Positions 14,928 to 35,324 of a stretch of DNA of 64,000 bases are shown piece after piece (position 1 is the stretch's first letter; each line of letters begins with the position of its first letter). Position numbers and translations under genes: made by a program. Below the pieces are notes generated by a model. It was not told the DNA's origin. It saw only the letters and a program-made list of their open reading frames with translations, and did no database searches. The DNA comes from Entophlyctis helioformis (taxonomy: Eukaryota; Chytridiomycota; Chytridiomycetes; Chytridiales; Chytriomycetaceae): the NCBI GenBank assembly GCA_025526915.1, contig JAHLKH010000001.1:372001-436000 (forward strand). The letters run 5' to 3'.

Positions 14928-17510
14928 TCAAAGTTGGTAGTCAAACAAGTCACTGTGTGGGATGCAGGTCAAGTGACTTGAGGGCAGGCTGTCTGCGTGT
15001 TGGTCGCTGCTGGATGACGGATGGACCGTGTCTTGAACGCCACAGGACGGCAGGCTGATCTGGTCCCATGAGGCCACATGCGACTTGAAGTGTTTCCGCG
15101 TTTGAGGCTGTGGGACAACAGGCGGAGCATTTCGTGCACGCAGCTGGATGGAGATATGCAATGCCGCGATGTCTGCAAGGTACTCTGACATGGCTGGATT
15201 GCTGTCGGCTTTGGTGTGCGTCAAGTAGAGCGGCCGGTGTCCAAAGAGCAGATGCCACAGTGCGACCATCCCGATGTTGGTGGCTCCAAGCACATCGCGG
15301 TGGTAGACGGTCGTGCATGGTATGCACTCGTAGCGTCGCAGGTTGGTGCGGTTCTTGTATGGGATCCGCTGCTTGCACTGCGGGCACATCTGGCTGGTCA
15401 GGTTCTCGTTGCAGCGGTAGATCTGTGTGTGTGTGTGTGTGTGCATGATCGTGTGGTCAGTTGGTGCACAGATGGATGGATGGACAGTGTGGCATCAGAC
15501 GCACATAGGCATATCCAGAAGACCGCAGATGCCTGATGAGAAACCTCTCAAACACAGCGTGCCGGCCACCTTGGCCTGTAAAGTCGATGCCAAATGCCCA
15601 CACAACGGGAATGTTGTCCTCTGTCAACTTTGTTCGGTCGACAGGGAGGCCTTGAGATGCAGCAGATGCGCGCTTTCCAGTGGTCGATCCTGCCAGCTTC
15701 ATGATGCCCTCAAGAGCGTTTCCGCGATCAGACGTGCGGCTGCTGCGCATGGTGAACCGCTTGGCCTTGACCTTCTGTGGAATGCCACGCCATGCCATGC
15801 CATCCAGTGCAATCAGCAGGCGATCAAGCAGCATGGCGGCCGTGTCAATGGGCATCCAGAACCAGAGAAAACGTACCCGTGCATTCAGGAATGGCGAGCA
15901 GTACGCATGGCAGCGCAGATCCCAAAAGGCTCTCTCGCCAGGCTTGACGTTTGGATCGGCATGCTTTGCTGTCTTGAATGCAATGGCCGCCTGGATGTCG
16001 GCTGCCTTGGCATATCGATTGTTGAGCCTGGCACAAGAGGCAGGCACTGTGAGTTGATCTGGTCAAGAGTGCGCATGGCAGAGTCATTGCATGCATACCA
16101 CCGCTGAAGGTCGCGCTCAGCTTGAAACATGCCAGAGGAGAGCACATAGTTGGACTCGAGCGTATACGAAAAGTCTCTGAGATCAACCAGGATACTGGAC
16201 GCGCCATACAGGTACCGCTGGCCCCAATCAAAGCTGACAACGCGAACAGTCTGGTAGCCTTGGTCAGTGAACAGATTGTTGGCGTTGATGATGTCGCGCA
16301 GTCGCTGCGAGGCGTAAAAGTTGAGCTTGCCCTGTCATGCCATGGCATGAGTGAGGAATGTGCAATGCATGTGCACCAAAGTGCGAGGTTGGCATGCAAG
16401 TGGCTTACAGGATTGGGCGTGTATGGCTTGGTGGCTGATGGGTTGGCTGGATTGGTGGCTGTGGATGGCATGTCAGTTGGTGTGGTCAACAAGTGCGCGT
16501 CTGGATTGGCACAGCAACTCACATTCGCCGTTAATGTAATCAGGCTTGCCATCAGCCTCGTCAACAAGCCACGGCTGCTCGCCTGAAGACGCCGCGTTGG
16601 GATCTGCAGATCAAGGCGGCAGTCAGAACCAATGTGTGCACCATCGCATTCAAGCACGCCACATACTGCGAGGTGACTCTGGACGGTTTGTGCGGCAGTC
16701 CAGTGCCAGCTGGTAGATGCTGTATCCATCCGTCATGATGCTGCCAAGTAGGATCGCCTTGGCTGGTCTTGCTGGACGCACAGCATCAATCGCAGCCTTG
16801 ATATGCTTCTCGCGCTCCTTGCCAACCAGACCCTGCTCATCGGCCTCTCGCGTCACCTTGGCTGTGGCATCGGCAACCGCGTCCATCTCATCTTTGGCTT
16901 CTGAAGGTGTCTGGCAGCGACCTTTCTTGGGGCGGAGACCTGGGAGAAGGATGTCAAAGATGCAAACCTCGCGACTTGCGCTGAATGCGTCTTGGATGTC
17001 CTTGTTGGATGACGCAAGAGCTGACTCGGCATCTTCATAGCCTTGGAGAAAAGTGCAGAGTCAGCATCAAATTGTGTACACATGGCATATACAGGCAGTG
17101 CGACCAACCGAGTGCAGCCAGAAGCTTTAGTCTCAATGCCTGCAAAGCAGGATTGTTAGATTATTGTCTGTTGGCTTTTCCAATTCCGTGTCTTGCAACT
17201 CTCCCTTTCCCTTGCTGTTCTATTCAATTGCCTGCCACAGACACTGTCGCCTGACAGCTCCTCTTCCTTTTGTCTGTGCCTCAGGTACTTCTTAGAATAC
17301 ACATTCAATTGCCTGCCACAGACACTGTCGCCTGACAGCTCCTCTTCCTTTTGTCTGTGCCTCAGCCAAACCCGCAGTTCCCTGTGCCTTCGCCGCACTC
17401 AAGCAGGAACTCTGACAAGGATCCTGATTGCCATGGATGCGCTCATCCTTTGTCCTCATCACCGCCCAAAAGAGCGTTGTCTCAGTGATGAGGACAAACG
17501 GATCGCGGCC
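14928..17510 (-). pseudogene. Split nuclease gene, C-terminal part: TnpB/Fanzor-like RuvC and zinc ribbon
   Basis: 3' part of the gene that starts at 35058; the frame runs straight on across the 17511-30365 insertion. Exons: 17510-17418, 17153-17109 (around a solo LTR), 17041-16667, 16603-16523, 16458-16409, 16331-16099, 16027-15505 and 15422-14928. RuvC-I is likely VVSFDWGQRYLYGAS. Later comes VVWAFGIDFTGQGGRHAVF, then CPQC ... RRYECIPC (zinc ribbon) and the RuvC-III-like YHRDVLGATNIGMVALWHLL. This order matches TnpB and eukaryotic Fanzor nucleases, which cut DNA guided by an RNA encoded beside them. The RuvC-II glutamate was not assigned. Exons are otherwise open, which argues for recent disruption. 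The tail ends in a Ser/His-rich stretch. Confidence 0.75.
17154..17417 (+). mobile_element. Solo LTR of the element-B (chromovirus) family
   Basis: 264 bp, TGTTAG...CTGACA ends, flanked by a 5-bp target duplication AGGAT (17149-17153 and 17418-17422). It is similar to the 258-bp LTRs at 20661 and 26735 but visibly diverged. It holds the same internal duplication of about 60 bp. It lies inside a coding exon of the split nuclease gene, reading opposite to that gene, and brings an in-frame stop. Confidence 0.9.
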
Positions 17511-17515
17511 TGCAG

Positions 17516-17688
17516 TGTAACGGATGCCGCCGCAGTCCCGTGGTCACGTGACCTGCTGGCATTGATCTGGACGCGCCTCGCCCGGACTTGGCTTGGCCCT
17601 GTTGTTGTAGTTGTATCCAGCCGTAAGCCTGTATACTCACTGCCCTCTGCCACCAGACGGCCAGCCGCTCTCGACGAGGACAGTTACA
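17516..17688 (+). repeat. Element A 5' LTR
   Basis: 173 bp. It contains a perfect 12-bp palindrome GGTCACGTGACC (about 17542-17553), an E-box likely to bind a bHLH factor. The internal region starts ACAACAACCAACGCC; I could not match a primer-binding site to a tRNA. Confidence 0.95.
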
Positions 17689-17754
17689 ACAACAACCAAC
17701 GCCACCGACGCCGCCAGCCGCCGTTACCTGCGGCGTCGAATTTTTTGTGCGACT

Positions 17755-19338
17755 ATGGGCCTGTCTCGCACGCCCACCCCTGGCGCCGGCCCTGCCGGCG
17801 CTGCGGCCGACGCCGACCCGGACGCCAACAGTGCCTTGTTTGTCTCGCCAGACTCCTCATTCGCCGACGAGCCGTCACACCTCCTGCATGGGTTTACGGG
17901 TAACTCTACCATCTGGGCTGATAGCCACACGCGTGATTCTGGGCTTGGCTCCATGGCCAGCGGCATGTCTGCATCCCGCCTCCCTCAGGCTGGCTCTCGT
18001 GGCCGCCAGGGTGCTCCATCGGGCAATGCAACCTCTGCAGTGGCCTCCAGCACGCCCGCGTTTCGCCACTCCTCTGCCGCGCCTCGGGGCGGCGGAGGTG
18101 CTCTGTTGGGCAGCGCGGGCGGCTCGCATGCCTTTCCCGTCCACTCTGTTGGCGCCGCGTCCGCTTCTGTGCACCAGCTGCAGGATTCGGCCAGCGAGGA
18201 CGTCCGGATCACACTGGATGACCACGCCGCATCGCTGTCTGCGGTTCAGGTCTCCATCGAGGACCTGCAGACCCGTCTGCATGACACCCACGAGCTGCTA
18301 GTCCAGCAGGCGGACTCTTTCACCACGTCTGCCGCGTCCAATGAGGAGCGTCTGGCCGCTCTGTTCAACTCGGTGTCAGCCAACACGGCAGCCGTGCGAA
18401 ACTTGCAGACGCAGGCCACCAAGACCGTGGAATCGATGATCGCCCTTAGCAAGCAAGTTGCCTTGGCCCAGCAGTCTGCAGACAAGGCCGTTGCAGCCAC
18501 AGCTGCCTTGCAGGCGTCGCGTTCGGCCCTCACGATTGGGTCCTCGGTGGACGCACGCCTGCCAGCAGCCGCGGACGCCCGTGCACCAAACCTCGCCAAG
18601 GTTTTCACAGACTGCTTGGGTGCCAAGCAGGTACCATTCAGCGGATTTGTGATGACCAAAGGCCCGGCTCCCTCAGTCGACTGGAACGCCACTCACAAGA
18701 ACCTCAAGCCATTTGTCATTGCAGTCGGCGGAGCATACAAGGAAGCCTGCACCACTGCCGGCGTCGACGCGATCCCATTAGGCGCCATCTTCTCGCTACT
18801 GCTGCCTTATTTCTCTGGCCGCGCACTCGAGTTTGTCACCGCATGGCACGAGTCGCATTCTGCCGACGATGATCTGTTCACGTTCCCTCAGTTCCTCGCC
18901 GACCTCCAATCGCTCCACCGCAACCCAGAGCGGATTCGCAACCAAGCCGAAGGGAAGCTGGCAAGCCAGTTCAAGCCGACGCTGTGCCATGGCCGCGCCC
19001 CGCAGGATTGGATTCTGGAGGCCGAACCGCTGTTCAGCGACGCGGGATACACGGATGACCAGAAGCTCAGATTCCTCCGTGCCCGCATCAAGGATCTGCC
19101 CCCAGGGAAGTTCAAGACGTATGCCGCCCTCCGCGACGCGTTCTTTGAGGATCACTCAGAGGCAGCCGAGCACGCCCTGGAGACTGCCGCCGCCACCGCT
19201 CTGGCAGATGCCCACAAGGCCCTCGAGGCCCAGTCAAAGCCCAGCTCTGGCAAGACAGCTGCCGCGTCGCCGCGTTCTTGGAGTTCCTCGTCGCCCAAGG
19301 CTGCCACCCCGCGCCTTCAGGCACAACAGCGCGTCTGA
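17755..19338 (+). CDS. Element A gag
   Basis: 527 aa capsid-type protein starting MGLSRTPTPGAG. The N-terminus is low-complexity (Gly, Ala, Ser). A predicted coiled coil follows (LSAVQVSIEDLQTRLHDTHE onward), then a Ty3 gag-like core around GAIFSLLLPYFSGRALEFV and FPQFLADLQS. No CCHC zinc knuckle is visible. The gag frame overlaps pol, which is read in the +1 frame, so pol expression probably needs +1 frameshifting near 19.3 kb. A longer upstream frame from 17611 begins inside the LTR with a non-ATG start and is rejected. Confidence 0.85.
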   Translation: MGLSRTPTPGAGPAGAAADADPDANSALFVSPDSSFADEPSHLLHGFTGNSTIWADSHTRDSGLGSMASGMSASRLPQAGSRGRQGAPSGNATSAVASSTPAFRHSSAAPRGGGGALLGSAGGSHAFPVHSVGAASASVHQLQDSASEDVRITLDDHAASLSAVQVSIEDLQTRLHDTHELLVQQADSFTTSAASNEERLAALFNSVSANTAAVRNLQTQATKTVESMIALSKQVALAQQSADKAVAATAALQASRSALTIGSSVDARLPAAADARAPNLAKVFTDCLGAKQVPFSGFVMTKGPAPSVDWNATHKNLKPFVIAVGGAYKEACTTAGVDAIPLGAIFSLLLPYFSGRALEFVTAWHESHSADDDLFTFPQFLADLQSLHRNPERIRNQAEGKLASQFKPTLCHGRAPQDWILEAEPLFSDAGYTDDQKLRFLRARIKDLPPGKFKTYAALRDAFFEDHSEAAEHALETAAATALADAHKALEAQSKPSSGKTAAASPRSWSSSSPKAATPRLQAQQRV

Positions 19339-20660
19339 GACGCGTAAGGCTGCCTCGCCCGCTGCGACAGCCGACCATGCCAGCCGATCGCCTAGCCAGC
19401 GCCCGCCCCACTCTAAGGTCGGGCGCATCGCGGCAAAGGCCAAGGCACCCGGGTACGTTCGCTCGCCCCCTCTGGCTCCTCCTGCTCCTGCGGCTAAGCA
19501 CGCTTCGGCGGCTAAGCCTGCAGCCGTGCGTAAGCCCAATGCTGACACCGAATCCCCATCGGTCCCTGCCCGTGACGACGGCGCACCAGCAATGGCTCCG
19601 GCTCGCGGTCGCTCGAAACCGTCTCGTCGTTCTCAGACGACGGGACCCAGTACAGCGACGCAGATGAAGAAGAGTGACCCATTGGGTGGTGTTGCGAATA
19701 AAAAGATGCCCTCCGCGGCCCCTGATCACCCTGTTTGTCCTGTGATGCCGCCGTCGCGACTGAAGGAGGGGCACCTGGCTCCCGTGAAGCCTATCACGGA
19801 GAACCGGTGCACCTTCCCAGTGTTCCTAGACAACCGCAGCGCCAGTGTCCTGGTGGACACTGGCAGCAGCGCGAATCTAGTGGCTCGCCATTGGTTGGAT
19901 GCCAACGGCCTGCTTGCCGCTGCCCGGCCGTTCACCCGGCAGGCGGTGACTCTCGAGTTTGCCAACGGCAACTTGCAGAGACTAGATTCAGAGGTCTACC
20001 TCACGCTCGCGGACAGATCAAATGCTGTCAGCCAGGTGCGGTTCCTCGTCTATGACGGTGTGGATGAGGTCATCCTGGGCATGCCGTGGCTGCGCACGAC
20101 CGCGAAGGCGTCATTCAACTTCCGTCGCGGCGTTTTCCGCTTCTCAACTGAGTCGCGCCCCGACGTGCACCACGTCTGGCAGCACGAAGACGCTCCGCCG
20201 TCTGCTGCACCCCACAACCGGCCGCACTCTGACATCGTGGTTACCATGTCGGACATCCTCGCCCACCCAGACGAGTACGCGGAGCTGGTTTATGTGGATG
20301 ACCTGCCCGAGGACCGTGCGGCAGCTGCTGATGCGCGCCTTCGCGTCGCGGCTGCAAACGGCCTCACCCCGGACGAGCTGAAGGAGAAGTACCCCTACCT
20401 TCCAGTCTGCCCGGACGAGGAGACGCAGAAGGCATTCATCGACTACTACGAGGTCTGCTGCCCGCCGCAAGGCCGTGCGCACGACTCGGAGTTCGAGATT
20501 GCGATCCCTTTCATTAAGGATGCGCAGCTGCCGCCGCGTCGTGGCCTCAAGAGACTGAATCAGGATGCATCCATAGCGCTCAAGAAGCAGCTGGACGAGT
20601 GGTACACCAAAGGTTACATCCGCCGCTCGTCATCGCCTTTGGGCGCCAGCACGCTCTTTG
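19300..20660 (+). CDS. Element A pol, 5' part (protease and start of RT)
   Basis: Read in +1 relative to gag. Aspartic protease motif VLVDTGSSANLVARHWLD, flap/second motif around VDEVILGMPWLRT. The linker leads to the RT entry region (EFEIAIPFIKDAQLPPRRGL, KKQLDEWYTKGYIRRSSSPLG). The frame is cut after ...STLFV by the nested element and resumes at 26998, with the duplicated CTTTG counted once. The exact start of the pol frame is not marked by an ATG. Confidence 0.85.
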
Positions 20661-20918
20661 TGTCAGAGTTCCTGCTCGAGTGCAGCGAAGGCACAGGGAA
20701 CTGCGGGTCTGCAACACAGACAGAGGGAGAGGAGCTGTCAGGCGACAGCGTCTGAGGCAGGCAAATGAATATGTATTGTAAGAAGTACCTGCAACACAGA
20801 CAGAGGGAGAGGAGCTGTCAGGCGACAGCGTCTGAGGCAGGCAAATGAATAGAACAGCAAGGGAAAGGCAGAGACGCGAGACATAGAGTTGGAAAAGCCA
20901 ACAGACGATAATCTAACA
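20661..20918 (-). repeat. Element B 3' LTR (in element orientation)
   Basis: 258 bp, TGTTAG...CTGACA in element sense. It contains an internal direct duplication of about 60 bp (starting GCAACACAGACAGAGGG on the plus strand), separated by 20 bp. Confidence 0.95.
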
Positions 20919-20996
20919 CCCCCCCTAGCCGAGGAGGCCAAGAGGACCCAAGGCGGCAGAAGAAGAGAAAAATTTTTAGCCTCGTCATCCCCCAGA

Positions 20997-23900
20997 TCAT
21001 CCGTGGCGGGCCTCGAAGGCATTGAGCATCTGGAGGGAGCCAGTGAACGACGCGTGCGGTTCCCATGTGTTGTCGGACTCAGGGTAGCCTTCCCACTTGA
21101 CGAGCCAGCGGCGGCGGTTGCCTCTGCCCTTGACGTCGCGGATGGCTTCAATGACGTAGATGTTACCCTCGGGGGCGACTTCAAGAGGAGCAGGACGGGC
21201 GTGAGCAGGGCGATCCGGGAAAGCAGCGACTGGGTCTACGTAAGGACGAAGGAGGTCGACATGGAACCAGGGATGCACGCGTGCAAGAGCAGGAGGTAGA
21301 TCCAGACAACGGTTGAGATTTGTAGCATCGTCATCAATGGCAGTGATGCGGAAGGGACCGAGCCAGGGAACACGGACGAGATCAGGACGCTGAGCATCGG
21401 CCGGCCAGGTGAGACCATTCGAGGACAACCAGACAAGAGAACCGACGGGGAGAGGTGCAGGTGCACGGCGTGACATGTTGGCTTGAACGCGAGCCTCCTC
21501 CTGAGCATCCGCAAGGTGAGTGGTAGCGACACCAGAGGCCGCGGCCACGCGTGAAACGAGATCGGCCACAGCAGGGGCAGCATCGGCAGGAGAGATAGAG
21601 GGAAGCATGGATGGGTTGTGACCAAAAGCCAGGTAGTACGGGGCAAAGCCAGTCGACGCATTGGGCGAGCTGTTGATCGAGAAGGCGACGGTGTGCAGGA
21701 GGTCAGGCCAGTTCTTGCCCGAGTAGTCCGCGTACTTGGAGAGAATTTGCTTGGTGGTCTGGATGGTGCGTTCCGACTGGCCATCGGTCTGCTGATGGCG
21801 AGCCGTGGCAAGGTGCATGTCAATGTTGAGCGTGGCCATGAGTGACGTCCAGAAGGCCGAAGCAAAGCGAGGATCGCGGTCCGAGACAACAGAGGAGGGC
21901 ACTCCCATGCCAGCACAGACCCAGTGCTTGCAGAAGAGCTCAGCCAGAGTGGCCGCGGATGCGGTGCGGGTGGTAGGTGCAAAGGCGACCAGCTTGGTGA
22001 GCCGATCAACAATGACAAGCACCGCATCCAAGCCTGAGTCAGTCATGGGCAGGAAGGCAATGTCGTAGGAGACGTCTGTGAAGCGGTCCTCAGGGATCAG
22101 CAGAGGATGGAGCAGACCCTGAGAGCGACGGCGATCAACAAAGTGGCGCTGGCAGATCTCGCACGAGGTAGCAAACTGGGCGGCGTCCTCACGCAGGGAA
22201 GGCCAGAAGAATGCGTTGAGCAGTCGGCTGGCGGTGTTGAGGCTGCCAAAGTGACCGGCCAAGGGCTTGTCGTGGTAGTTGGAAAGCAGACGCGTGCGTA
22301 GCTCGCCGTCAGGAACGTAGAGGCGGCCGGAGTGGTACCAGAGGCCGTCGGAGAGGACCATGTGCTTGAAGATCCTGGCTTCGGAAGGGGAAGGACTGGT
22401 CAGACCGGAGCGCCAGTCGAGCATCTGCAGAGCGTAAGGGTCGGTAGCGAGCAGAGGGCGGATGGTGTCCTTGAGCGACGCGGCAGACGTGATGGCACTG
22501 ACAGAGGCAGCGGCAGTGGCCGGTGGGTCGAGGTTGCGCTCAAAAACAGCATGGCAGGACGAGCAACGAGGCTGGTGGGCAGGGTGGCGGGAGAGGAAGT
22601 CAGTGAGCACGTTGGTGGGCCCTGGGACGTACTCAATGGTGGCGTGGAACTCCTGGAGCGCCATGACCCAGCGAACCTGGCGCGGCGTCAGGTTGGGCTG
22701 ACGTGGAAGCCAGATGAGGGCACGGTGGTCGGTGCAGATAACAAACTGGCAGCTGGACAGGTAGTGATGGAACACACGGCAGACTTCGACGAGGGCCAGG
22801 AGCTCGCGCTCATGGACTGGGTAGTTGACCTCGGCCGGGACCATCTTGCGACTGTAGTAGGCCACTGGGTGCCACCCGTCGGCATGCTCCTGAGCGATCC
22901 AGCCACCGATTGCATAATCCGACGCATCCGTGTAGACGCGAGTTGGCAGTTTCGCATCAAAGAAGCAGAGGACTGGGGCAGTGGTGATGGCATGGATCAG
23001 ATAGTGGACCGCCTGCTGCTCGCGGGCGCCCCAGACAAACGGTGCGGCGGCGAGTGTCAAGGCGTACAGCGGTCGGGCGAGCTCGGCAAAGTACGGGATG
23101 AAGTCCTTCAGCCAGACAACATGGCCCAGGAGGGTGAGGACGCCATCGCGGTTGGTGCAGGTAGTGTGCTCCAACACTTTGTCGATGCTGTGCTGAGCGA
23201 TGGAGTAGCCAGTGGGCGAGACCATATGGCCGCAGAACTCGACAGACGGCTCGAGGAAGGAACACTTTGAGCCTTTGGCGAAGATGCGGTTGTCGCGGAG
23301 GACCTGCAGGACGTGCGTGACATGCTGGCAGTGCTCGTCCAAGGAGTGCGAGTAGATGAGCAGGTCGTCGACGTAGACACCCATGAAGACGTCATGAGCG
23401 CCGGCGAACAAGCGGTTGGACAGTGCCATCATCGTAGCAGGGGCATTGACAAGGCCGTATGGCATGACGCGAAACTCAAAGTGCCCGTACCGTGTCACGA
23501 ACGCGGTCTTGTGCACGTCCTTGTCAGCCACACGGATGTTCATGAAGCCGTCGCGGAGGTCGATGGACGAGATGAACTTGCAGCCAGCCACCTGGTCGCG
23601 GAGGGCCGGGATGGTGGGCAGGGTCGTCTTGTCCTTGACCGAGATGGCATTGAGGCCACGGTAGTCGACGCAGAGGCATAGGGTGCCGTCCTTCTTGCCA
23701 GCAAACAGCATAGATGCCGCGTACTGAGATGTGGATCGGCGGATGTAGCCGAGGTCGAACCAGGTCTGGATCTGCTTGCGGAGGATCTCGAGCTCAGCGT
23801 TGTTGAGACGAGGCAGAGGGCGGCGAGGTGGAACACGCGCGTCCGGGATGAGTGGGATGGCGTGGTCCTCTGGGCGATGGGGTGGGATGCCGGTTGGCTT

Positions 23901-24940
23901 CTGGAAGACATCGGCATACTCCAGCAGAATGGCGTTGATGCGCGGCTCGTGGCATGTGGGGACCAGATCAAAGTCAATAGGCGTGCTGGAAGCAGGAGCC
24001 GAGACAGAGGAAACCGTTGGCGTGTAGTGGTGGTGCTCGCAAATCGCGGCAATGTGGTCGGTAAGGGAGTCGACGGTCCAGCCGCCAGCCGGCTCGTTGG
24101 CCTCAATGGCGAAAACGATGTCGTCCGAGCTGCGGAGATCCGCAGGGGAGATGAGGTTGACCATGAATGGAGCCGGATCGACGGGGTTGGATAGCAATGA
24201 CCAGGTGACGGGGCAGTTGGAGTGCCGCGGCGTGAAGCGGAGCGTGCCGGCCGAAGCGTCCCAAAGGTTGATTGTGACCTTGTCAAACCAGGGAGTGCCA
24301 ATGATGATGTCGGACGTGATGTCGGCAATGAAGAAAGGCAGAGAGGCCTGGTAGTCGCCGGACAAGAACAGGCCGTGCAGCATCTCGGACACCACCACGC
24401 GTTCGCCACCTGCATAGGCAATATCAAACGGCGAGATGCGTGTGGGCGTGAGGTGCCATCTGTTGGCCCACTGACGAGAGACAATCATGGCCGAGCTGCC
24501 GCTGTCGATGGTAGCGGTGCAGGGAGCCCCCATGAAGGTGCCCGCAATGTGGGAGACAGTAGGCGAGACGAGAGATGGGGGGGCAACGTCTTCGACGGAT
24601 TCATTCCGGCAAGGCACATCATCGGCGGCATCTCCACTGCTTGGAATAGCAGGCGTTGCCACTGGCACGGACTCAGGCAGTAGTGGAGCTGGCGGTACCG
24701 GCGGGGGCAGGGGCACCACCGGCGGCTGCGGCTCTAAAGGTATGCCAGGTGGGGGATGAGTCGGGTGCACGGGAGTGGCAACAGGAGTGCGACGAGAGTG
24801 ACGAGCAGGGACGAACCTTGGATCGATGACGGTCGCCTTGTAGGTGGGGCAGTCCGAGGACTGGTGGGACGGGTTGCGGCAGCGAACGCAACCGCCGCGG
24901 GAGATGATCCAAGCGTAACCCTCGGAGTGAGCGACTTCAT
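20997..24940 (-). CDS. Element B pol: zinc knuckle, protease, RT, RNase H, integrase, chromodomain
   Basis: About 1,300 residues and open throughout. Order: CCHC knuckle CVRCRNPSHQSSDC (about 24890-24850), protease TIDSGSSAMIVSRQW, RT VDYRGLNAISVKDKTTLP and active site MGVYVDDLLIYS, RNase H YTDASDYAIGGWIAQ, integrase zinc motif ending CEICQRHF, DDE residues in DVSYDIAFL, VVSDRDPRF and ARHQQTDGQSERT, and a C-terminal chromodomain RRRWLVKWEGYPESDNTWEP. The chromodomain marks it as a chromovirus, whose integrase can be steered to marked chromatin. The zinc knuckle is in the pol frame, unlike usual gag placement. The frame relation to gag is -1. Confidence 0.9.
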
Positions 24941-26011
24941 GGCCGTGAGCGAGACATCGTTGTAAGAATTGATGGGACGCGACGATGCCAGAGGCGGGGC
25001 CGAGACCTGCCGGACAGGAACGGGGACGCGTTGGGTGGGAGCAGGGGTCGCGTTTGCAGGCTTGGGAACGCGGAGGGCCTCTTCAGTGTAGCCGGCCTCG
25101 CGAAGCTCTGTGTGTTTCTTGGCAGTGTGATCCACGAGTAACCTCATGGAGTCGAACTTTTTCCAGTCTGTGACAATGTGGGCCCTGAGTAGAGGGTCAA
25201 AGAGCTTGGCGAAGGAGAGGACGTTCTGCTTGTTGTACCCGTGGTCAGCATCCTTCATGAGAGTAGGGTACTCGGCAATCAGCGACGTGAATGGTGGGGC
25301 TGTCCATGGAGACTTGTGCCACAACTCGAGACGGTTGGACGCGTTGAACTGGACAGAGTGGGAGGTGAATCGGGTCTTGCCAGCGTCGCGAAGGGCGGTC
25401 CATGTCTGGGATTCAGGAGGTACCGAATCGAACCACTCGTTGGCCCACATGTGGGCTATGTCCTCGAGGCGGCTGATGACAAGGCCGACAATCTGGGAAG
25501 GGAGGAGAGTGGTTGAGGGGTAGCAGCGGAATGCATTGTTGACTTGTGAGACAAACTTAAGCCAATCGGTGTGGACAACGTCGGGATTCTTGTCGCTGTT
25601 GGTACCGGAGAAGAAGGGGATCTTGCCGATCTGGGATTGGAAACTGCGGTTCTGGTTGTCAGGGTCCGAAGCTGGGGCGGTGATACCGCGTCCTTCGAGC
25701 GCCTCGATACGGACCAGCAGGGCAGCGTTGAGCTCTTCCGCGTAGGTGAGAGATTGTGAAAGACCGTTGAAGAGCTTGGCAAAGTGGGACGCGGACTGAG
25801 TGGTCAGGTCGGCGTTTTGGTTGACGATATGTACGAGGCTGTCATGGTGACGTTTGAGCTTGGTATTCTCGTCGATCAGGTGGTTGATAAAGGCCACTAT
25901 GTGTCGGGCTTCCGAGTCGAGAGCGCTCCGTGTGTTTAGCAAACGCTGCCAGGACGGGCGCAAGGGCCCCACGGAGGTTGGCGACGGTCTTGGTCTCGCT
26001 ACTTTTGGCAT
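24734..26011 (-). CDS. Element B gag
   Basis: 425 aa starting MPKVARPRPSPTS. There is a coiled-coil-like region (HIVAFINHLIDENTKLKRH onward), then a retrotransposon gag core (PFFSGTNSDKNPDVVHTDWL, WANEWFDSVPPESQTWTAL, KTRFTSHSVQF). The C-terminal residues after about 24960 are out of frame with the zinc knuckle, so the functional product probably shifts -1 into pol before its own stop. Antisense to element A. Confidence 0.85.
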   Translation of the reverse strand: MPKVARPRPSPTSVGPLRPSWQRLLNTRSALDSEARHIVAFINHLIDENTKLKRHHDSLVHIVNQNADLTTQSASHFAKLFNGLSQSLTYAEELNAALLVRIEALEGRGITAPASDPDNQNRSFQSQIGKIPFFSGTNSDKNPDVVHTDWLKFVSQVNNAFRCYPSTTLLPSQIVGLVISRLEDIAHMWANEWFDSVPPESQTWTALRDAGKTRFTSHSVQFNASNRLELWHKSPWTAPPFTSLIAEYPTLMKDADHGYNKQNVLSFAKLFDPLLRAHIVTDWKKFDSMRLLVDHTAKKHTELREAGYTEEALRVPKPANATPAPTQRVPVPVRQVSAPPLASSRPINSYNDVSLTAMKSLTPRVTLGSSPAAVAFAAATRPTSPRTAPPTRRPSSIQGSSLLVTLVALLLPLPCTRLIPHLAYL

Positions 26012-26422
26012 GGGTGATATTGATGTCCCTGGTTGCCTGTGTATCGGCCCTCTGGGGGGGCTCGTCGAGGTACCTGAGCGCCATCTTGTCGAAGGAGAAG
26101 ATTGGGGGGTCGTTGCTTGGATGGTCGCTTGGAGGAGGAGGTGAGAACAGGGACTCTGGTTTCTTGTCGTCGGTGGGGACGGTTGAGGGGTCCTTGGCTG
26201 GGAGTGCCGGGGAGCTCAAGGACGTCGTTGGTCGGCTGTGCAGGCTGGGGCGGCCTGCTGGGGAAGAGGCTGTAGATAGCGTCCATTTGACGCGTTGGTC
26301 GAATTGACCAATCAGAAACGAGATGTCAAGGAAGTGGGTCGGAGTTGTGTCGCGTTTGGTTGGCGTGTTGTTTGGGTAGATCAGAAGGTGCGAGACAACA
26401 GAGAGAGATGGTGGACGCCGAG

Positions 26423-26652
26423 CGCAACGAGAAGGACGTTGAGGACGGTGTGGAGGGCCGGAGAACCGGTGGGCACTGAGCTCGACGAGAAGGACGACGA
26501 GGGCAGTGTGGGGACTGGAGGACCAGTGGACACCAAACGCAACGAGAAGGACGTTGAGAACGGTGTGGAGGGCCGGAGAACCGGTAGGCACTGAGCTCGA
26601 CGAGAAGGACGACGAGGGCAGTGTGGGGGCTGGAAGACCAGTAGGCGTCGCG
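26423..26652. repeat. 115-bp tandem duplication in the element B leader
   Basis: Two imperfect copies, each starting CGCAACGAGAAGGACGTTGA, between the 5' LTR and gag of element B. The rest of the leader (26012-26734) shows no clear protein. Confidence 0.75.
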
Positions 26653-26734
26653 AGCGACGAGGGGGATGTCAGAAGGGATGTGAGGGCCAGGCGGGTGCCG
26701 CGAGCGGCGAGATTGCTGTTTCTAGGGCTGTTCT

Positions 26735-26992
26735 TGTCAGAGTTCCTGCTCGAGTGCAGCGAAGGCACAGGGAACTGCGGGTCTGCAACACAGACAGAGG
26801 GAGAGGAGCTGTCAGGCGACAGCGTCTGAGGCAGGCAAATGAATATGTATTGTAAGAAGTACCTGCAACACAGACAGAGGGAGAGGAGCTGTCAGGCGAC
26901 AGCGTCTGAGGCAGGCAAATGAATAGAACAGCAAGGGAAAGGCAGAGACGCGAGACATAGAGTTGGAAAAGCCAACAGACGATAATCTAACA
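26735..26992 (-). repeat. Element B 5' LTR (in element orientation)
   Basis: Identical by eye to 20661-20918, followed by the right TSD CTTTG. Confidence 0.95.
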
Positions 26993-26997
26993 CTTTG

Positions 26998-29900
26998 TCC
27001 GCAAGAAGGATGGTTCGCTGCGGTTGGTCATTGACTACCGCGGCTTGAACAACATCTCGGTGAAGTTCCACAGTGCGATCCCGGAGATTGAGACCCTCCG
27101 CGATAACTTGGCAAACAAACCCTTCCGCTCGATGCTTGACATCCGCGAGGGCTTCCTTAACATCCGTGTTAAGGCGGAGGACCAGTGGAAAACTGCGTTC
27201 TCCACCCAGTTTGGTCACTTTGAGTTCACGGTCATGCCTTTTGGGCTGACCAATGCTCCGGCTGTGTTTACACAAGCCATCCAGTCGACACTCAATGAGC
27301 TGCTGGGCACGTGCGTCTCGGTGTACATGGACGACATCTACATCTACAGCGCGACGTACGAGGAGCATATCAAACACCTACGCACTGTTCTCAAGCTGCT
27401 ACTGAAGGCTCAATTGTATATTAAGCCGTCCAAGTGCATGATCCTGCAGCAGGACATTGAGTTCTGCGGTCACGTGCTCTCGCCCACTGGTTATTCCATT
27501 GCGCCAAAGCACTTGCAGGACATGGCAGCTGCCCCCCACATCTCCAACACAACCACTCTGGCAACTTGGCTAGGTAAGCTTGTGTGGTTAAAGTCATTCA
27601 TTGGTGGGCCGAACCCTGCAAAGGCGTACGCCACCATGTGCCTGCCACTATACAAGCTACTGGCCAAAAATGCCAAGTGGGAGTGGGGCCCTGCTCAAAA
27701 GCAGGCTGTGGAAGACCTGCGACAGGCAGTGCTGAAAGCAACCGAGCTGCGGTTCTTTGACCCGGCTCTGGAAACGCATGTCTACACTGATGCCAGCAAC
27801 TACGTCATTGCCGGCTACCTGTCGCAGATCCACCCAGATGGCGAGAAGCTGGTGGCCTGCTGGTCACGTAAGCTTAGCCCGGCCGAGATGAACTATCCAA
27901 CCCATGAACGCGAGTTGCTCGCCATCGTGGAGTTCTTCTCGCGTTTCCGTCATCTGTTGTCCAGTGTGCGCTCTGTCACGCACACTGACCACAAGGCGCT
28001 GGTCTGGTTGGCCACGCAGCCCCACCTGTCGGATCGGCAGGCTCGATGGGTCCTGTCTCTGCAGGAATTTGATACATCCATTGAGTACGTGCCTGGCGAG
28101 CTCAACTCGCTGGCTGATCTGCTGTCCCGCGATCCCTCAAAGGCCCCTCTCTGCACAAACTGTCGCTCGCCTGTCCCAATCCGTGCTGCCAATCTGCGCA
28201 CTGACTCTGACTGGGCGAAAGACGTGCGTGCGGCGTTGCCGGCCGACCCATTCGCCTCCAGACTGCCTGGCTGGAAGGCCGACCCGTCGTCGGCCACGCC
28301 GGCCGACCGCAAGGTCGTAGTGCACATGGAGTGCTTGGATGGTGCGTGGTGGTACAAAGGCAACCGCTTGTATGTGCCGCAGTCGCTGCGCGCGGATCTG
28401 CTCGCCCACTACCACGACTCTCCCTTTGGCGCGCACCAGGGACGTCAGCGGACCACCAGCCGCTTGTCGAACCGGTACTTCTGGCCCAGAATGTCTGAGG
28501 ACATTGCTGCCTATGTCGCCTCCTGCGACATGTGCCAGCGCCACCGCACGCCCAACCACCGGCCCGACGGCCTGCTGCATCCACTCGCGATCCCAGACGA
28601 CTGCTTCTCGAGCGTCGCCATGGACGTCATGTTCCTGCCTGCGGGCGGACAAGACGATGTGTTTGATGCTGCTCTGGTTGTGGTCGATCGCCTGTCCGGT
28701 CTCTGCGACGCGTTCCCGTGCTGCCGCTTGTCGTCGGCCCAGGAGCTGGCCGAGCTCTTCCTGACTCGCTGGGTCTGCTCGGGCAAGGGCTTCCCGGTCG
28801 ACATCGTCTCGGACCGCGACGCCCGCTGGCTGTCGGCTTTCTGGTCGAGCCTCTGCACTGCTGCCCGGATCAAGCAGAACCTCAGCACGGCTCGCCACCA
28901 GCAGACTGACGGCTTGGCCGAACGCAGCATCTGCACCATCAAGGATGCGCTCGCCAAGGCGGCCGATTACCACGGCTCTGACTGGCCGCTGCTGCTCGGT
29001 CCCACCTGCTTTGGCCTCAACTGCGCGCCGTCTGCGTCGTCTGGCTTTGCCCCCCTCTTCCTGGCGTTTGGCCGCCACCCGCGGTCCTTCCCGTCCGAGC
29101 CGGCCCTGGCACCGTCTGCCGCGGCCCGCGACCTGCTGCTGGACATGGCCGCTGCCCGCGACTCGGCCATTTTGAATCGGCGCAAAGCCCAGGCAGCCAT
29201 GACCGTTCAGGCAAACAAGCGTCGCCGCCGTCACCCTGCGTACAAGATCGGCGACATGGTGCTCCTCAACGCTGAGGGCATCTCCTGGCCGGCGGACTCG
29301 CACCGCCCGCCGCTCACGGCCGCCAAGTGGCTCGGCCCTTTTGCCATCACCAGCCTGGACTCTGGTGAATCTGGCCTCAACTACACGCTTGCACTGCCTG
29401 CCTCGCTGCACCGCGTCCACAACGTGTTCCATGCCGACCGGATCTGCCCGTATGTCGACCCTCTGTCTGCGCCCACCGGCTGCAAGGACGTGCCCTCCCG
29501 GCCTGACCCCGAGTACCACGCCGACGACGGCACGTCGGACAACTACAAGGTCGAGCGGATCGTTGACTCGCGCACTTATCGCGGCAAGATCGAGTATCTG
29601 GTCAAGTGGGTCGGTTATCCAGCCGACGACAACACATGGGTCCCAGCCGCCGACATGCGCAAGGCCCAGGACCTCGTCAAGGCGTTCCATGCTCGGCCGA
29701 CCAAGGCGCCTAAGGGCAAGGCGTCCAAACCGGCTCAGCCCACGCACGCGGCTCCTGCTCCGGCTGCTCCTGCTCCAGCCGCGGCGCCTGCTCCCACGCA
29801 GCCCAAGGCATCCAAGCCCTCTCGCCGCAAGCGCACTGCGCCTGCTCCTGCACCAGTGGCCCCTGCTCCAGCAGCAGCCACGCCCGCGGCACCTGCTCCG

Positions 29901-30134
29901 GCTGACGAGCCGATCGCACCTGCTGCACCCGCATCTCCCTCTCTCTCTCCATCTTTCCCTCCTCTCCCTCCTCCCTCTCCTCCTCCTTCCTTCTCTCTCT
30001 CTTCTCTTCCCCCTCTCAACCATCCCGCCCCACCTCGTCGCTCTGAGCGCACGGTTCCCCGTCCTGTGTCCTATGCGTCCATTGCTGCCCGCACTTCTGC
30101 CTCTCGTGTGTGCAACGCCCCTGCATCCTCCTAG
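26998..30134 (+). CDS. Element A pol, 3' part (RT, RNase H, integrase, chromodomain, Pro/Ala tail)
   Basis: Continues the RT frame from 20660. Motifs: RKKDGSLRLVIDYRGLNNIS, VYMDDIYIYS (YMDD), RNase H YTDASNYVIAGYLSQ, integrase zinc region (HYHDSPFGAHQG to CDMCQRH), DDE core in DVMFLPAGG, DIVSDRDARWL and ARHQQTDGLAERS, and chromodomain KIEYLVKWVGYPADDNTWVP. After the chromodomain is an unusual tail of about 150 residues made of Pro/Ala repeats, then Ser/Pro-rich sequence encoded by a CTC-rich stretch. Fully open, so element A was probably competent before element B landed in it. Confidence 0.95.
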
Positions 30135-30187
30135 TCGCTGTTCATCCACTCTTCTTTCTTATAAGTGGCTGTCTACGCTGGGGGGAG

Positions 30188-30360
30188 TGTAACGGATGCC
30201 GCCGCAGTCCCGTGGTCACGTGACCTGCTGGCATTGATCTGGACGCGCCTCGCCCGGACTTGGCTTGGCCCTGTTGTTGTAGTTGTATCCAGCCGTAAGC
30301 CTGTATACTCACTGCCCTCTGCCACCAGACGGCCAGCCGCTCTCGACGAGGACAGTTACA
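30188..30360 (+). repeat. Element A 3' LTR
   Basis: 173 bp, matches 17516-17688, ends GTTACA, followed by TSD TGCAG (30361-30365). Confidence 0.95.
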
Positions 30361-30365
30361 TGCAG

Positions 30366-33300
30366 GCTGCGGACACAACTTGAGGGATGAGCCTGCGAGA
30401 TCACACAACTGCTTGAACTTGCCGGCCTCTGACAGCAACTTGTTGCGCACGACCGCCGTGAGCCTGTGCAGTGCTTGTGGGATCTCAACAATGCGTCCGT
30501 CTTGTCTGGTCAACAGTGGTGTGCCAGACGTGGCATCCCCGGTGGCTGTATCCATTGCCTTGGCAAATTCCGCTGCCTTGTCAGCAGATAAACCAGGAAT
30601 CAGTCGGTGGATTGCCCAGTCAATGAGCATCGACTGGTGGGTCATGAAGTGCACAGCAAGCATGCCACAGATGCCCCGTGCCAGATTTTTGTAGATGTCG
30701 TTCCGAGCAGCTGTACACAAACTGTCGTCAAGCCTGCCAGGCAAAACGGCATGCATCATGCTTGCGTCCATGTGCACAATGGCTGACAGCAATGAGCCGG
30801 CCTGCATCGCGTCCATCTTGGCTGCCCGCGCCACACCAGCCTGCATCTTGGTCATGCTGTCCCGGATCATCTGCTGTGTCCATTCGCGGTTGATGATCAT
30901 CTGCATGATGGTCACAATCCACGAGTGGGCCACATGCTTTGTCGCCCGCGGCATGACCGACTCCTGACCGGTGAGAATGTAGCCCAGGTATCGCAGAAGC
31001 ATCGTGACGGCTCCCTCGCCACTAGAGGTACTGTTTGTGAGCACCTTGAGCAGATCATTTGCCGATGGTACTGCCCGTTGTAGTGGTGGCTTGATGGCTG
31101 GTGGTTGGGCATTGGTGCTGCTGGATGCGGCGGCTACTGCTGCTGGTGCTGCTGTTGCTACTGCTGGTGCTGTGTCGTCGGTGAAGGTGCAGATCTTGAC
31201 CATTGTGCCCGCCTCAAGTCTCACCAAGTCGCCATAGTGAGCAATGTCGGTGTTGCTGCAGAGCGGGCCCTCGCCGTACATGCGCCGGGCATTAACTGGC
31301 CATCTGAGGACGCATCCAGCAGCGTAGAGCCACGCGCTCTTGTCCTTGAAGTGATCAGGATCAATATAGACATATTCCATCTCACCATTCCTCCTGGCCT
31401 CCATGACGCAGAACTTGAGTGGCAGTGGTGCATATGCGTCGAGCACGACGAGCTCTTCAACGATGGCGCCGATCATAGTGATGCATGCACGCCGCACATC
31501 GGCTGTGTATCGGTACACGCCATTGAAGATGCTTTCTGAAAGTGAACCGCGGGTCTGTGTTGCCGGCGCTGTCTTGGCCTGGTGTCCAAAATACTTTGCA
31601 AGCATTGGATCTCCAGAGAGCATTTCCTGTATGTAGCACAAGTCAACATACACAAAGCCAGACATGCAGAGCGACATGGCAATCCAAACTCATACCTCCA
31701 TTTTGACGATCTGCTCAGGGCAATCGTATGTGCTCTCCACTGGCCTTGCCTCATTGCCATGGATGGCAGCAGCAGCTGTCATGACTGGCAATGCCATCAT
31801 GCGGTGGATCTTTTCAAGCATCTGCTCTATCGCCGATCTTTCACCACGCTCATATCTGTCAAAGAACGCACCGGTCAGCACACACACTCAAGGCACATGC
31901 CATGCCATATGCCACTTACGCCCGTGTCTCGTCCTCAGATGGAGCCTGGCGGGCTTGCCTGCTCGCATCCTTCTTGTGCTCCTGGATGAACTTCTTGGTC
32001 TTGGCCTTCTCAGCTTGCTCAGCTCGCTCCTTATCACGCTCAGCCTGCATGGCCGGTGTGACCAGGTATGGATCCTGCTGTGGTTGAATGCAATGTTAGG
32101 CATGCATCTTGAATGTGCACAAGATGCTCGCAATCACAAGCCTGCAGTTCAACTCACAGTCTGTAACGGATGCTCGGTCGCGGTCACGTGATCCACGTGA
32201 CCGGACAGACATCGCCCGGCCGCGTCCCCTGCTCTGGTTGCCCCCGTTCTTGCAGTCGTCTGCCCGCCCTTCCTCGCGTGCATACTCACTGCCCCTGCAA
32301 CCAGCCGGCAAGTCCGCCTGGAGGCCCAGTGCTACACAGTCGTCCTTGTGTCTTGAAGCACACCAATGTGAAAGACCTTGTCGCAATCTGTGCCTCTATC
32401 ATCTGCGGCTCGAGGTGGCAGCAGCATCTTGCATGGTTTTGGTGGCTTGCCGGCCTGTTGAGTGGAAGGATAAGCAATCGCAGCAAGCCATCACATGCAA
32501 ACAGAGCCAGCAAATGCAAAGACTCACCGGTACTCGATTGATAATCGACTGCAGTATCTGCTTTGCTTGGTCATAACACTCGCCAAATTCTGATGCTCGG
32601 AAATCAGCATGCCTGACATCCGTTGGGTTTGTCAGGGAGTTGAGCGTCTTTATGGCCGTTTCGCGAATATCAGCAACAGCTTCTGGGGTCGCGATCCGTG
32701 TGCTCCTTCTGAGAGGCTGCTTTGTCTTTATACCCTTGACTGTCACACAAATGCCGTGATCAGTGGTGAATACACAATGTCGCACTGTGTCAACCCGTGC
32801 AGAGCAAACCTGGCTTCTTTAGACGCCTGAAAGATGCGCATTTCAAGCCTGGATACTTCTTGAGCCGCTCATTCAGTCTTGCTATCACATTCTGCTCGCC
32901 CAGTAATGGATCAAGCCGGCAGCATTGAAGATCAGCAACAGCATGCAGTGGACAGCCAAGACACGCATCCAAGCCTCACAAAACCCACCAATGCATGATA
33001 AAGAATCTTGCCAGCCGCACTGAGCCTTGCATATGCTTCTTTAGCGATACGCCAGTCATGCACAGCCTGCAGCAGCTGCTTGCTTGCATTCTCGCAGATA
33101 TCAGCAAGGATGTTGCGGCCATTGAGAATGTCGTCGGTGAGGAGGTCTGCCGTGCATCGGAGAATGCAGCTAAACACGACACGGCAGCTGTTGAATTCGT
33201 CAAAAACGCCGTCCATCCGCCTTGTGCTGACAGTGTGGTTGGCGAGCTCTGTGACTGCGTCCCGTGTGATGTGCCAAACCGCACCACTGGCATTGCCCTT

Positions 33301-35058
33301 CAGCTGCTGTGCCATGTGGCTCAAGCAGCAGCCACTGCGGGCCGTGCATGCAGAGGCAGATCTGCCAGTGGCATCCATCAGAGTCAGTGCCATGAGAATC
33401 CTCCAGAGATCACAAGCACGCCTACTTTTTTCGAGCCGAGGCGGCCCTGTTGGCAGTCCTGCTGTTGCCATTGGATGATGCATGCATTCATGTCAATGCC
33501 ATGCTGTCCAAGTGCATCCAAAGCAAGACTTACAGCGGTATCATTTGAGCAAAAACATCCCCATAACAACCATGGCTTTGGTCTGTGAACTCTCCAATAT
33601 CCGCTCCAGTTTCGTCACGGTCGAGAAACACCGCAAAGGCATTGCTGAACGATTGAGCAAGAGGCTTGCTGCCGATCTTGTACATCTGCAACATAAATGA
33701 GGCCTTGAAGACGTCCACAAACATCCTGGCAAGGTCTGGGTCTTGCAGGCGTTGACAGAACTCTGCGACAGTGATCCCTGCCCATGTTGCCTCAAAACGA
33801 ATGCATGCCATAATGCACTTTGCAGCCGTGACAATCCCTTGCAAGTCATCATTGCAGCATCACGAGTAAGTCAAGGTCACAGCGCATGGCATCCAAAATT
33901 GCAAAGCAGGCAAGCCAACATACCAATCTCATCACAATGAAAATAGTCATTTCTCGCTGCGGCTGCCGCCAACCGGCAGATGTCAAGAATCTCTGGCAAG
34001 TCAAAGGTGGCTGCAATAGATGCTACACCTGGGTGGTTGTACGATCTCATCTGTGCAATCTGTCTGCCGCGCATTTGCAGCAGCAGGACAGGGCAATAGC
34101 TGGCACAATGAAAGATGAGGTCGGTATCACCACTGATGACAATGACTGGCACATTGCTGTCAAGAAAGGCGCGTGAGCCATGGATTGGAGAAGCATGCAG
34201 AAGACAAACCAACCTTGCTTTGCGCACACAGCATGCAATGCAAACATCCACCTTGTTTTTACAAAGGCACACAGACGACCCTTCCCCAAAGTATCCAAGA
34301 AGACCCCAATGGCCCCACAGATTGCCGCCTTACACTCGCATGTCAATGGAAACGCCCACTGGAGTGACTGGATCTCGTCCCTGGAAAGGCACTCAGTCAG
34401 CACGGCATGCAAATCAACAGCAGCAAGTGGCATACTTTGTGAGCCTGTTGCCTTTCTGGTCTGCTTTTCGCTTGGCCACCATTGTCTGGATCGACAATGC
34501 TGCTTCCAAATTTACCCGTGCCTGCTCAGTGCGGACAGCCTTGATATTGGTGTTGAGAAGCGAGCCATCGACATGGAGCCGGACCGTGTGGAGCTTTCCA
34601 ATTGATGCTGCGAGGCTGGCAATGAGCGGCTCGAGTGTCGGCGTCCAGTTTTCCTCTGGCTGTGCCAGCAGTATTGGTGCTGCTTTGTAGATATCGCCGG
34701 CAAAAAGACTGAGAACGTCCACATGCACAACACACTGGATGGGCGGACGCTCTGTGTTGTGCTGCTGCAGTGTTTGAGGGGGCTGTACCACGACCTGAAT
34801 TGCACCCGAGAGAGGGTTTGTGGGATCAAGGGTTTTGCTACCACCTGCTTTGTCAATGGGAGGAGTCGCGCTGACGACCCCCATGCGTGTTGGGCGTGCT
34901 TGTTGGTTTGTTGTTGCGTGTTGTTGTGTGTCGTGGCAAGTCGCGATCTGGTGTTTGTTTGCATTGACATGCTCTGATTGTTTGGCAGCAACACATGGAG
35001 CACTGGTCTGTGTGTGTGGAATGGCATGCTCCTCAGAGAGAGAGAGAGCGTTGCACAT
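30366..35058 (-). pseudogene. Split nuclease gene, N-terminal part with XPG-like region
   Basis: 5' part of the gene ending at 14928. Exons: 35058-34436, 34380-about 34280, about 34156 (or 34214)-33924, 33837-33534, 33400-32980, 32891-32810, 32739-32528, 32454-about 32337, 32077-31920, 31855-31696, 31626-30361. The N-terminus is low-complexity. Then VVHVDVLSLFAGDIYKAAPI and TVRLHVDGSLLNTNIKAVR, followed by NVPVIVISGDTDLIFHCASY, resemble the N and I regions of XPG/FEN1 nucleases (D-G-x-x-x-x-K-x-x-R and S-x-D-x-D). That assignment is inference. The large last exon (LSGDPMLAKYFGHQAK onward) is helical and unfamiliar. Transcription would start from the 35.06-35.32 kb region shared with TFIIS. 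Disrupted here by element A and a solo LTR. Confidence 0.7.
32162..32336 (+). mobile_element. Solo LTR of the element-A family, at an exon/intron junction
   Basis: 175 bp, TGTAACGGATG...GCTACA, flanked by TSD CAGTC (32157-32161 and 32337-32341). Clearly related to the 173-bp element A LTR but diverged. It keeps two CACGTG sites (GGTCACGTGATCCACGTGACC). It sits exactly at a splice donor of the split nuclease gene; see findings. Confidence 0.9.
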
Positions 35059-35324
35059 GACTATGCATTCGCCCCTCTTTATTCATGGAGGACACACACG
35101 CACCGCCCAGCGAGACAGCAGGCGCTGCTGCCTGCACCACTGCCGTTGCTGGACTCGCATCGCGCAGTGTCAGCACTTCTCAAGGGCTCTCTAGATCGAC
35201 CAATCATAGCGATTCCACCAGGATCGACCAATCACAGCGATTCCACCAGGATTGACCAATCAGGAATATTCCACCAGGGGTAATGGTATGAGAACCGGGC
35301 AAACTTTTCTTGCTCCACCACACG
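35059..35324. promoter_or_regulatory. Divergent promoter with three 28-bp CCAAT repeats
   Basis: Between the split nuclease gene start (35058, minus) and TFIIS (35325, plus). Three tandem 28-bp units at 35192-35219, 35220-35247 and 35248-35275 each carry GACCAATCA, a CCAAT/HAP-complex-type site, and end TTCCACCAG. Confidence 0.75.

Follow-up and report, generated by a model that had tools for sequence, protein, structure and literature searches.

A candidate fusion of an XPG-like region with a Fanzor-type nuclease in a transposon family of the chytrid Entophlyctis helioformis

Introduction

The closest described relatives of the element considered here are the Fanzor proteins, which are RNA-guided cutters according to Saito et al. 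2023 (PMC10432273). The Fanzor1 protein SPu-1-1p of the chytrid Spizellomyces punctatus is 633 amino acids long and is encoded by one open reading frame, within an element that has 33-bp terminal inverted repeats (TIRs) and putative TA target-site duplications (TSDs); the motif of the family is D-X(125,275)-[TS]-[TS]-X-X-C4 zinc finger-X(5,50)-RD (both from Bao and Jurka 2013, PMC3627910). The subject of this work is a 64,000-nucleotide stretch of Entophlyctis helioformis DNA (assembly GCA_025526915.1, contig JAHLKH010000001.1, positions 372,001 to 436,000), termed the window, which holds one damaged and decayed copy of a multi-copy inverted-repeat DNA transposon encoding a Fanzor-like nuclease.

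In this transposon family, the genomic sequence supports a single gene in which an XPG-like region is fused to a nuclease of TnpB/Fanzor-like type. It is moderately probable that the intact family form is one protein, in which a long middle region connects an N-terminal FEN1/XPG-like metal nuclease with a C-terminal Fanzor-type RuvC nuclease bearing a zinc ribbon, and that it works by the mechanism proposed below. No description of a Fanzor joined to an XPG-like nuclease was found in the literature searched, which covered few subscription papers.

Results

An intact gene spanning both halves

Twenty loci of the family (L021–L040) were examined, and the gene is intact in the subfamily A copy L029. 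Its 19 exons are open throughout, all 18 introns have GT-AG borders, and the predicted product of 1777 amino acids contains no internal stop. The exon borders were read from conserved splice sites and replaced automatic gene models that contained doubtful introns. Exon scoring covered nine of the eleven subfamily A loci (L030 and L031 were left out), and the other eight scored copies retain 14–17 of the 19 exons. A subfamily C copy encodes 1893 amino acids without a stop in an automatic, less certain model. By eye, the introns directly after the XPG-like exons lie at the same place and in the same phase in subfamilies A, B, and C, and the donor of intron 4 in subfamily C is GC.

The published models for the family, P0001–P0007, are short and separate (187–397 amino acids). 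P0005 (397 amino acids) agrees by eye with exons 1–4 of L027 and ends at a TAG just inside intron 5. This stop was considered as the end of the gene and rejected, since the model reads through a donor, and in subfamilies B and C an intron occupies this position in the same phase. P0001 (332 amino acids) begins in the Fanzor half and agrees by eye with the joins around exons 15–18.

A transposon family with terminal inverted repeats

Single-exon queries of the genome (29.57 Mb in 482 contigs) gave at least 146 matches for the middle exon, at least 150 for the zinc-ribbon exon, and at least 149 for the XPG-like exon; 92 of 490, 150 of 358, and 150 of 158 candidates were scored, respectively, and the counts are lower bounds. 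The two halves are linked in the genome. With distances of 3–9 kb permitted, 69 of 141 XPG-like matches have a same-strand match to the TNB zinc ribbon 5.3–8.5 kb downstream, against one with the strand flipped and none in reverse order. This count used 141 of the 149 XPG-like rows (eight short fragments were dropped) and all 150 TNB rows, with part of the 146 middle-exon rows serving for annotation. The TNB profile PF07282 itself exceeds its cut-off at no fewer than 150 genome places (150 of 205 candidates scored).

Subfamily A copies L021–L029 are 7,225–7,304 bp long and 97–98% identical to L026, and in most of them similarity ends at both element borders; L026 and L028 have a common 3′ flank. 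The element ends, GGCCCGGTTCTCATACCATTACC and GGTAATTGTATGAATATCGGGCC, are imperfect 23-bp inverted repeats that match at 19 of 23 positions by hand count. Allowing up to three mismatches, the 5′ pattern occurs at 86 and the 3′ pattern at 170 genome places, and the reversed-pattern controls at none. Pairing of 77 of the 86 five-prime with 83 of the 170 three-prime rows gave 40 TIR pairs, of which 27 span 7.2–9.8 kb, ten are longer (the window copy among them), and three are short (989, 1,052, and 2,169 bp).

The matched flanks of 13 insertions are more alike than shuffled pairs (score 68 vs 49.9, p = 5e-5), with the reservation that L022 and L030 are not independent because they share their 5′ flank. 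Five of these insertions carry a TSD-like repeat of 7–11 bp, and the remainder have matches of 3–5 bp; the window copy, which shows no clear TSD, is among the latter. The 1,052-bp deletion derivative, L046, retains both TIRs; roughly 100 bp remain at its 5′ end and roughly 870 bp at its 3′ end, with AGATCGC flanking it on both sides. The family thus has the terminal inverted repeats and the TSD-like repeats expected of a TIR DNA transposon.

Several observations concern the element borders. The 30-nt 5′ flanks of L022 and L030 are identical and their 3′ flanks differ, which suggests either recombination between copies or a repeated target. Words resembling AAAG or AAGNTCG are frequent in the flanks of subfamily A and B insertions, a possible target preference. 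In subfamily C, the 3′ ends (L032–L036, L038) are about 50 nt longer (ATTTGCCGGCGG...), of which L034 shares the first bases only; the 5′ ends (L033–L036, positions 1–900) extend at least about 1 kb further, with minus-strand open frames, and their 5′ limit was not reached.

The L029 protein contains no transposase domain: Pfam at E values up to 1 returned TNB and one weak match to FAD_binding_4, and the genome was not searched for transposases. A full-length protein search gave no match at E 1e-3 (7992 candidates scored). Among word-sharing candidates, the protein-database matches are all from Entophlyctis helioformis, four of four for the Fanzor end and three of three for the XPG region. For the Fanzor end, viral contigs gave 34 pattern matches, none confirmed, and phage records gave four with a best E of 1e-2.

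The Fanzor-like C-terminal half and the 3′ end

The C-terminal half carries the RuvC-I (DWG), zinc-ribbon, and HRD motifs that an earlier note on this DNA had read there. The TNB zinc ribbon PF07282 is found in L029 at 1.7e-9 (38.2 bits vs a cut-off of 26.3) and in all three alignment rows. The Fanzor motif of Bao and Jurka is present in L029 (leftmost match 1369–1656) and in none of 2000 shuffles. The TnpB NCBIfam profiles guided_TnpB and IS200_TnpB match all three rows, with a best value of 6.8e-7, at scores far short of their cut-offs (21–23 bits for the first row vs 100 and 425). A Glu precedes the first CxxC by six residues, the placement described by Yoon et al. 2023. An AlphaFold model of P0001 from four sequences, of low confidence (predicted local distance difference test, pLDDT, 37), has three strands after the DWG region and then a long helix.

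Downstream of the stop codon is a non-coding stretch that is conserved across 14 sequences, the alignment having taken 14 of the 20 three-prime ends. It gave no Rfam match at the gathering score. In L030, L034, L036, L038, and L039, a longer hairpin-like segment stands in place of a short one, and L038 has a paired change, reading CATTGTT...AACAATG vs CATTATT...AATAATG or AATAATA in the others. By analogy with described Fanzors, we infer that the Fanzor half may be guided by RNA.

The XPG-like N-terminal half

Six acidic columns are identical in every row present: D56, D106, E193, D195, D216, and D218 (L026 numbering). The alignment has six rows from subfamilies A, B, and C and from L038, two of them partial and two near-identical A copies, which amounts to about four independent lineages; D56 is present in four rows only. 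Of the 34 comparable columns that are acidic in L026, eight are acidic in all rows present, and the six named columns are those with an invariant residue. Their spacing of 50, 87, 2, 21, and 2 roughly follows that of host FEN1 (53, 72, 2, 19, and 2), so in these few, partly partial rows the metal-binding acids of XPG/FEN1 nucleases are found in order and at roughly similar distances. A seventh acid column (NDY) is N in one row, L037. A regular expression with FEN1 spacing finds no match in L029 because it requires, ahead of the first Asp, two hydrophobic residues drawn from a set that does not include His. The half is called XPG-like by motif, with the XPG domain itself unproven, because no profile, PDB, or hhalign test is significant.

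Divergence and exchange of the Fanzor end

Comparisons of different subfamilies give a ratio of nonsynonymous to synonymous divergence (dN/dS) below 1 for the XPG exons and for the middle region. Synonymous divergence (dS) is uneven along the gene. For L026 (subfamily A) against L035 (subfamily C), XPG exons 1–4 give dS values of 1.84, 2.40, saturated, and 2.38, and onward from the middle dS is 1.32 (middle), 0.99, 0.55, 0.16, 0.10 (exon 18), and 0.17 (exon 19). The 3′ introns of L026 are 96, 93, 95, and 78% identical to those of L033, and 96, 93, 99, and 98% identical to those of L038, with the intron preceding RuvC at 80–81% identity. Protein constraint does not explain this likeness of the introns.

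The trees differ between the two ends. Each of the subfamilies A, B, and C forms a monophyletic group in the XPG tree. Exons 18–19 give a tree in which neither B nor C is monophyletic, and L039 (B) and L038 fall within C. For the middle region, the tree comprised 17 of the 20 loci, with subfamily B under the coverage cut. As read from these sequences, the Fanzor end has been exchanged between old lineages, because A–C synonymous divergence collapses in the last two exons and the 3′ introns are mostly 93–99% identical.

The copy in the window

The window contains matches to all 19 family exons in two minus-strand blocks, 34884–30361 and 17515–14928 (Table 1). The earlier note had read two minus-strand exon sets, 35058–30366 and 17510–14928, as one gene split by an insertion; both sets are present and are parts of one element. 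Its codon junction CAG CCT GCA / GGC CGC GAT is also correct, because uninterrupted paralogues (L024, L025, L026, L029) read straight through the insertion point as ...SLKLCPQPA GRDPFVLITETTLFW.... Two of its details do not hold. The start was placed at 35058, and the family start codon is at 34884, a start that published models P0005 and P0007 have in common with the family; the frame was also expected to close to the end after splicing, which fails in this copy through two further inserts and a frameshift in exon 2. That frameshift is due to a 1-nt deletion. In addition, the XPG motif NEADV reads NKVDV in this copy, and an XPG acid is lost. The window copy, as it stands, does not look functional.

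The interrupting element is bounded by an identical 175-nt repeat (17514–17688 and 30186–30360), of which two bases, read by eye, are shared by chance; the long terminal repeats (LTRs) are 17516–17688 and 30188–30360, with CTGCA on both sides. Its plus strand encodes reverse transcriptase, RNase H, integrase, and a chromodomain. Nested within it is a second element of this type on the minus strand (20653–26993), whose 267-nt repeats are 99% identical.

Table 1. Features of the transposon copy in the window (window coordinates).
Feature	Position	Strand	Basis or remark
Complete transposon copy from one TIR to the other, later inserts included	14720..35301	-	20,582 bp; TIR matches, pairing, boundaries
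5′ terminal inverted repeat TGCCCGGTTCTCATACCATTACC	35279..35301 (contig C1:407279-407301)	-	
Exon 1, start MGVVS, XPG-like acids D56 (HVD) and D106 (VDG)	34436..34884	-	acid positions from paralogues
Exon 2, XPG-like EAD motif	34214..34380	-	1-nt deletion, NEADV to NKVDV in this copy
Exon 3, XPG-like SGDTD and NDY motifs	33924..34156	-	
Exon 4, end of XPG-like region	33534..33837	-	
Exons 5–11, stop-free	31696..33461 (33461-33426, 33361-32989, 32891-32810, 32739-32528, 32454-32338, 32074-31920, 31855-31696)	-	
Third insert, at intron 9 donor	32162..32336	.	175 nt, solo-LTR-like, TG...CA ends, repeat GACTG
Exon 12 part one, middle region without Pfam match	30361..31626	-	abuts LTR element
LTR retrotransposon in exon 12	17516..30360	.	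identical LTRs, TSD CTGCA
Exon 12 part two	17418..17515	-	flanked by two inserts
Second insert, exon 12	17154..17417	.	5-nt repeat at ends; inverted match to 267-nt repeat of nested retroelement
Exon 12 final part	17111..17153	-	beyond second insert
Exons 13–15	16409..17041 (17041-16667, 16603-16523, 16458-16409)	-	
Exon 16, RuvC-I motif VVSFDWG	16099..16331	-	
Exon 17	15877..16017	-	aligned part, query bases 11-151
Exon 18, RuvC region ...GIDFTGQGGRHAVFERFLIRHL	15505..15774	-	
Exon 19, rearranged Glu (NEN), zinc ribbon CPQC/CIPC, HRD, stop	14928..15422	-	
Conserved 3′ non-coding stretch, expected place of omega RNA scaffold	14720..14927	-	structure not significant
3′ terminal inverted repeat GGTAATTGTATGAATATCGGGCC	14720..14742 (contig C1:386720-386742)	-	

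Elsewhere in the window are an LSD1-like gene with SWIRM and amine oxidase domains (7706–9628, minus strand) and a VID27-like gene (61259–63433, plus strand).

Discussion

Proposed mechanism

TnpB has a role in the retention of its element, and this role is the model for the mechanism proposed here. An RNA derived from the conserved 3′ end and its flank would guide the Fanzor half to cut DNA at element-related sites, which could be an empty site or a place close to the 3′ end in a related copy. Repair of the break from another copy would keep or spread the element and convert the 3′ end of a paralogue; a cut near the 3′ end followed by such repair fits the polar exchange. At the break, the XPG-like half may trim branched ends or 5′ flaps; alternatively, it may process RNA. 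Joining of the TIR ends to a new target could be performed by an enzyme in trans or by the fused protein itself.

Alternative explanations

Several results weigh against the reading of one protein with two nucleases and the mechanism built on it. The fusion could be an artefact of gene models, with an XPG-like gene and a Fanzor gene lying side by side within one TIR pair and expressed separately. The published models are split in this manner, P0005 stopping after exon 5 at a TAG in what is assigned here as intron 5 and P0001 starting in the Fanzor half; moreover, eight of the nine scored subfamily A copies are broken, and the exon borders were set partly by keeping the frame open. Two separate genes nevertheless appear decidedly improbable, given that the reading frame of L029 stays open across all 19 exons, every intron being GT-AG, and that the P0005 stop is a donor read-through where B and C have introns (by eye). 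The single gene proposed in the earlier note is thereby favoured by the unbroken L029, the shared introns, and the 69 linked loci of 141, and conflicts with the split annotation; the DNA does not show the halves always as separate genes, even though that annotation has them in short separate models only. The resemblance to XPG could instead be superficial and the protein a large Fanzor that is extended at its N-terminus by unrelated sequence. XPG_I_2 matches four of the six rows with a best E of 0.021, under the Pfam cut-off, and a PDB profile search with the XPG part returned nothing at E up to 10. Alignment by hhalign to a two-sequence host FEN1/XPG profile scored 14.8, out of catalytic register, where 40 shuffled controls reach 19.0, and AlphaFold with a three-sequence alignment reached a pLDDT of 33. 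Six-frame searches of the genome with PF00867 and PF12813 match at contigs C1, C2, C43, and C38 and at none of the XPG exon places, and for the element neither XPG profile exceeds its cut-off, the L029 protein included. Set against these are the six invariant acids with gaps roughly like those of host FEN1 (six rows, about four lineages), and a superficial resemblance is considered rather unlikely. Of the XPG/FEN1-like character claimed in the earlier note, the six acids in XPG-like order stand, and the fold is not confirmed by profile, PDB, hhalign, or AlphaFold; structure prediction, which the note had proposed for both halves, gave low confidence for each. On the Fanzor side, L029 fails the strict expression D{P}G-x(120,160)-E-x6-CxxC derived from Yoon et al. 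because its Asp–Glu gap is too long, and it fits at relaxed spacing only. Shuffled sequences fold as well as the 3′ RNA (z -1.25), and double changes occur in two of its 49 predicted pairs.

The mechanism meets its own alternatives. The fused protein may be a passenger: a DDE-type TIR transposon would have captured a Fanzor, an unrelated transposase would mobilise all copies in trans, and the XPG-like half would play no part in mobility. The TIRs and TSD-like repeats would be expected of such an element, as would the internally deleted derivative that lacks the full gene and still has TIRs and a flanking repeat, and the L029 protein is without a transposase domain; Bao and Jurka also report that Mariner, IS4, Sola, MuDr, and Helitron elements carry Fanzor1 (PMC3627910). 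A pure passenger would not need a dN/dS that is mostly below 1 in both halves, although two of 30 between-subfamily values in five Fanzor-half segments exceed 1 (1.09 and 1.03, both with L040), as does one within-A value (1.38). A passenger role is a substantial possibility that falls short of probable. For the exchange, the chances are close to even that the Fanzor end came to be shared recently through ordinary unequal recombination among dispersed repeats, which would make the sharing uninformative about nuclease-driven conversion; dense similar repeats recombine in many genomes. The fall of dS from 5′ to 3′ between L026 and L035 runs counter to this, and the exchange is therefore centred on the Fanzor end and is not element-wide. 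The shared end is not seamless, because positions 8100–8400 of L026 (the C-terminal tail) diverge from L033, at only 12–34% identity. A stronger form of the proposed mechanism, quite unlikely on present evidence, is that one two-nuclease protein would be the whole machinery of the element: RNA from its own 3′ end would steer the Fanzor half to empty or related sites, the XPG-like half would process the strands, and repair would copy the element or its Fanzor end into the family lineages. If true, this would be a eukaryotic RNA-guided mobile system that needs no DDE transposase and rewrites its own relatives.

Implications

If the fusion is expressed, it would show that Fanzors are built into larger, two-nuclease machines and would provide a natural system in which cutting and end processing are possibly coupled. 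The use of a Fanzor to its transposon could then be tested in one genome that has many copies, short derivatives, and exchanged 3′ ends.

Comparison with known systems

The C-terminal half resembles Fanzor1 (SPu-1/SpuFz1 of Spizellomyces punctatus) in its RuvC Asp, Fanzor motif, C4 zinc ribbon, and RD, in its position between TIRs, and in its chytrid host. Unlike the single-frame SPu-1-1p of 633 amino acids, L029 has 1,777 amino acids, 19 exons, and an XPG-like N-terminus; and in place of 33-bp TIRs with putative TA TSDs, the family has imperfect 23-bp TIRs and longer, inexact TSD-like repeats. The C-terminal half also resembles the TnpB/Fanzor group with a rearranged RuvC-II Glu, described by Yoon et al. 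2023 (PMC10711439): the Glu stands six residues before the first CxxC, 16 residues separate the CxxC pairs, and an Asp follows six residues after the second pair (hand count). It departs from the group in the Asp–Glu distance, which is published there as 120–160 and is 183 from DWG by hand count, or 195 in the leftmost relaxed match. With the IS200/IS605 and IS607 TnpB proteins, it shares the TNB domain and weak TnpB NCBIfam matches, and it differs in being eukaryotic and spliced, with no TnpA seen and an extra nuclease-like half.

The N-terminal half is like the FEN1/XPG/EXO1 and Asteroid (XPG_I_2) nucleases in its N-terminal MG and in the order and rough spacing of six acids, and like FEN1 in the placing of NDY near the position of FEN1 GCDYC. 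Unlike these nucleases, it has no significant profile match, and it is multi-copy, mobile, and apparently fused to a RuvC-type nuclease.

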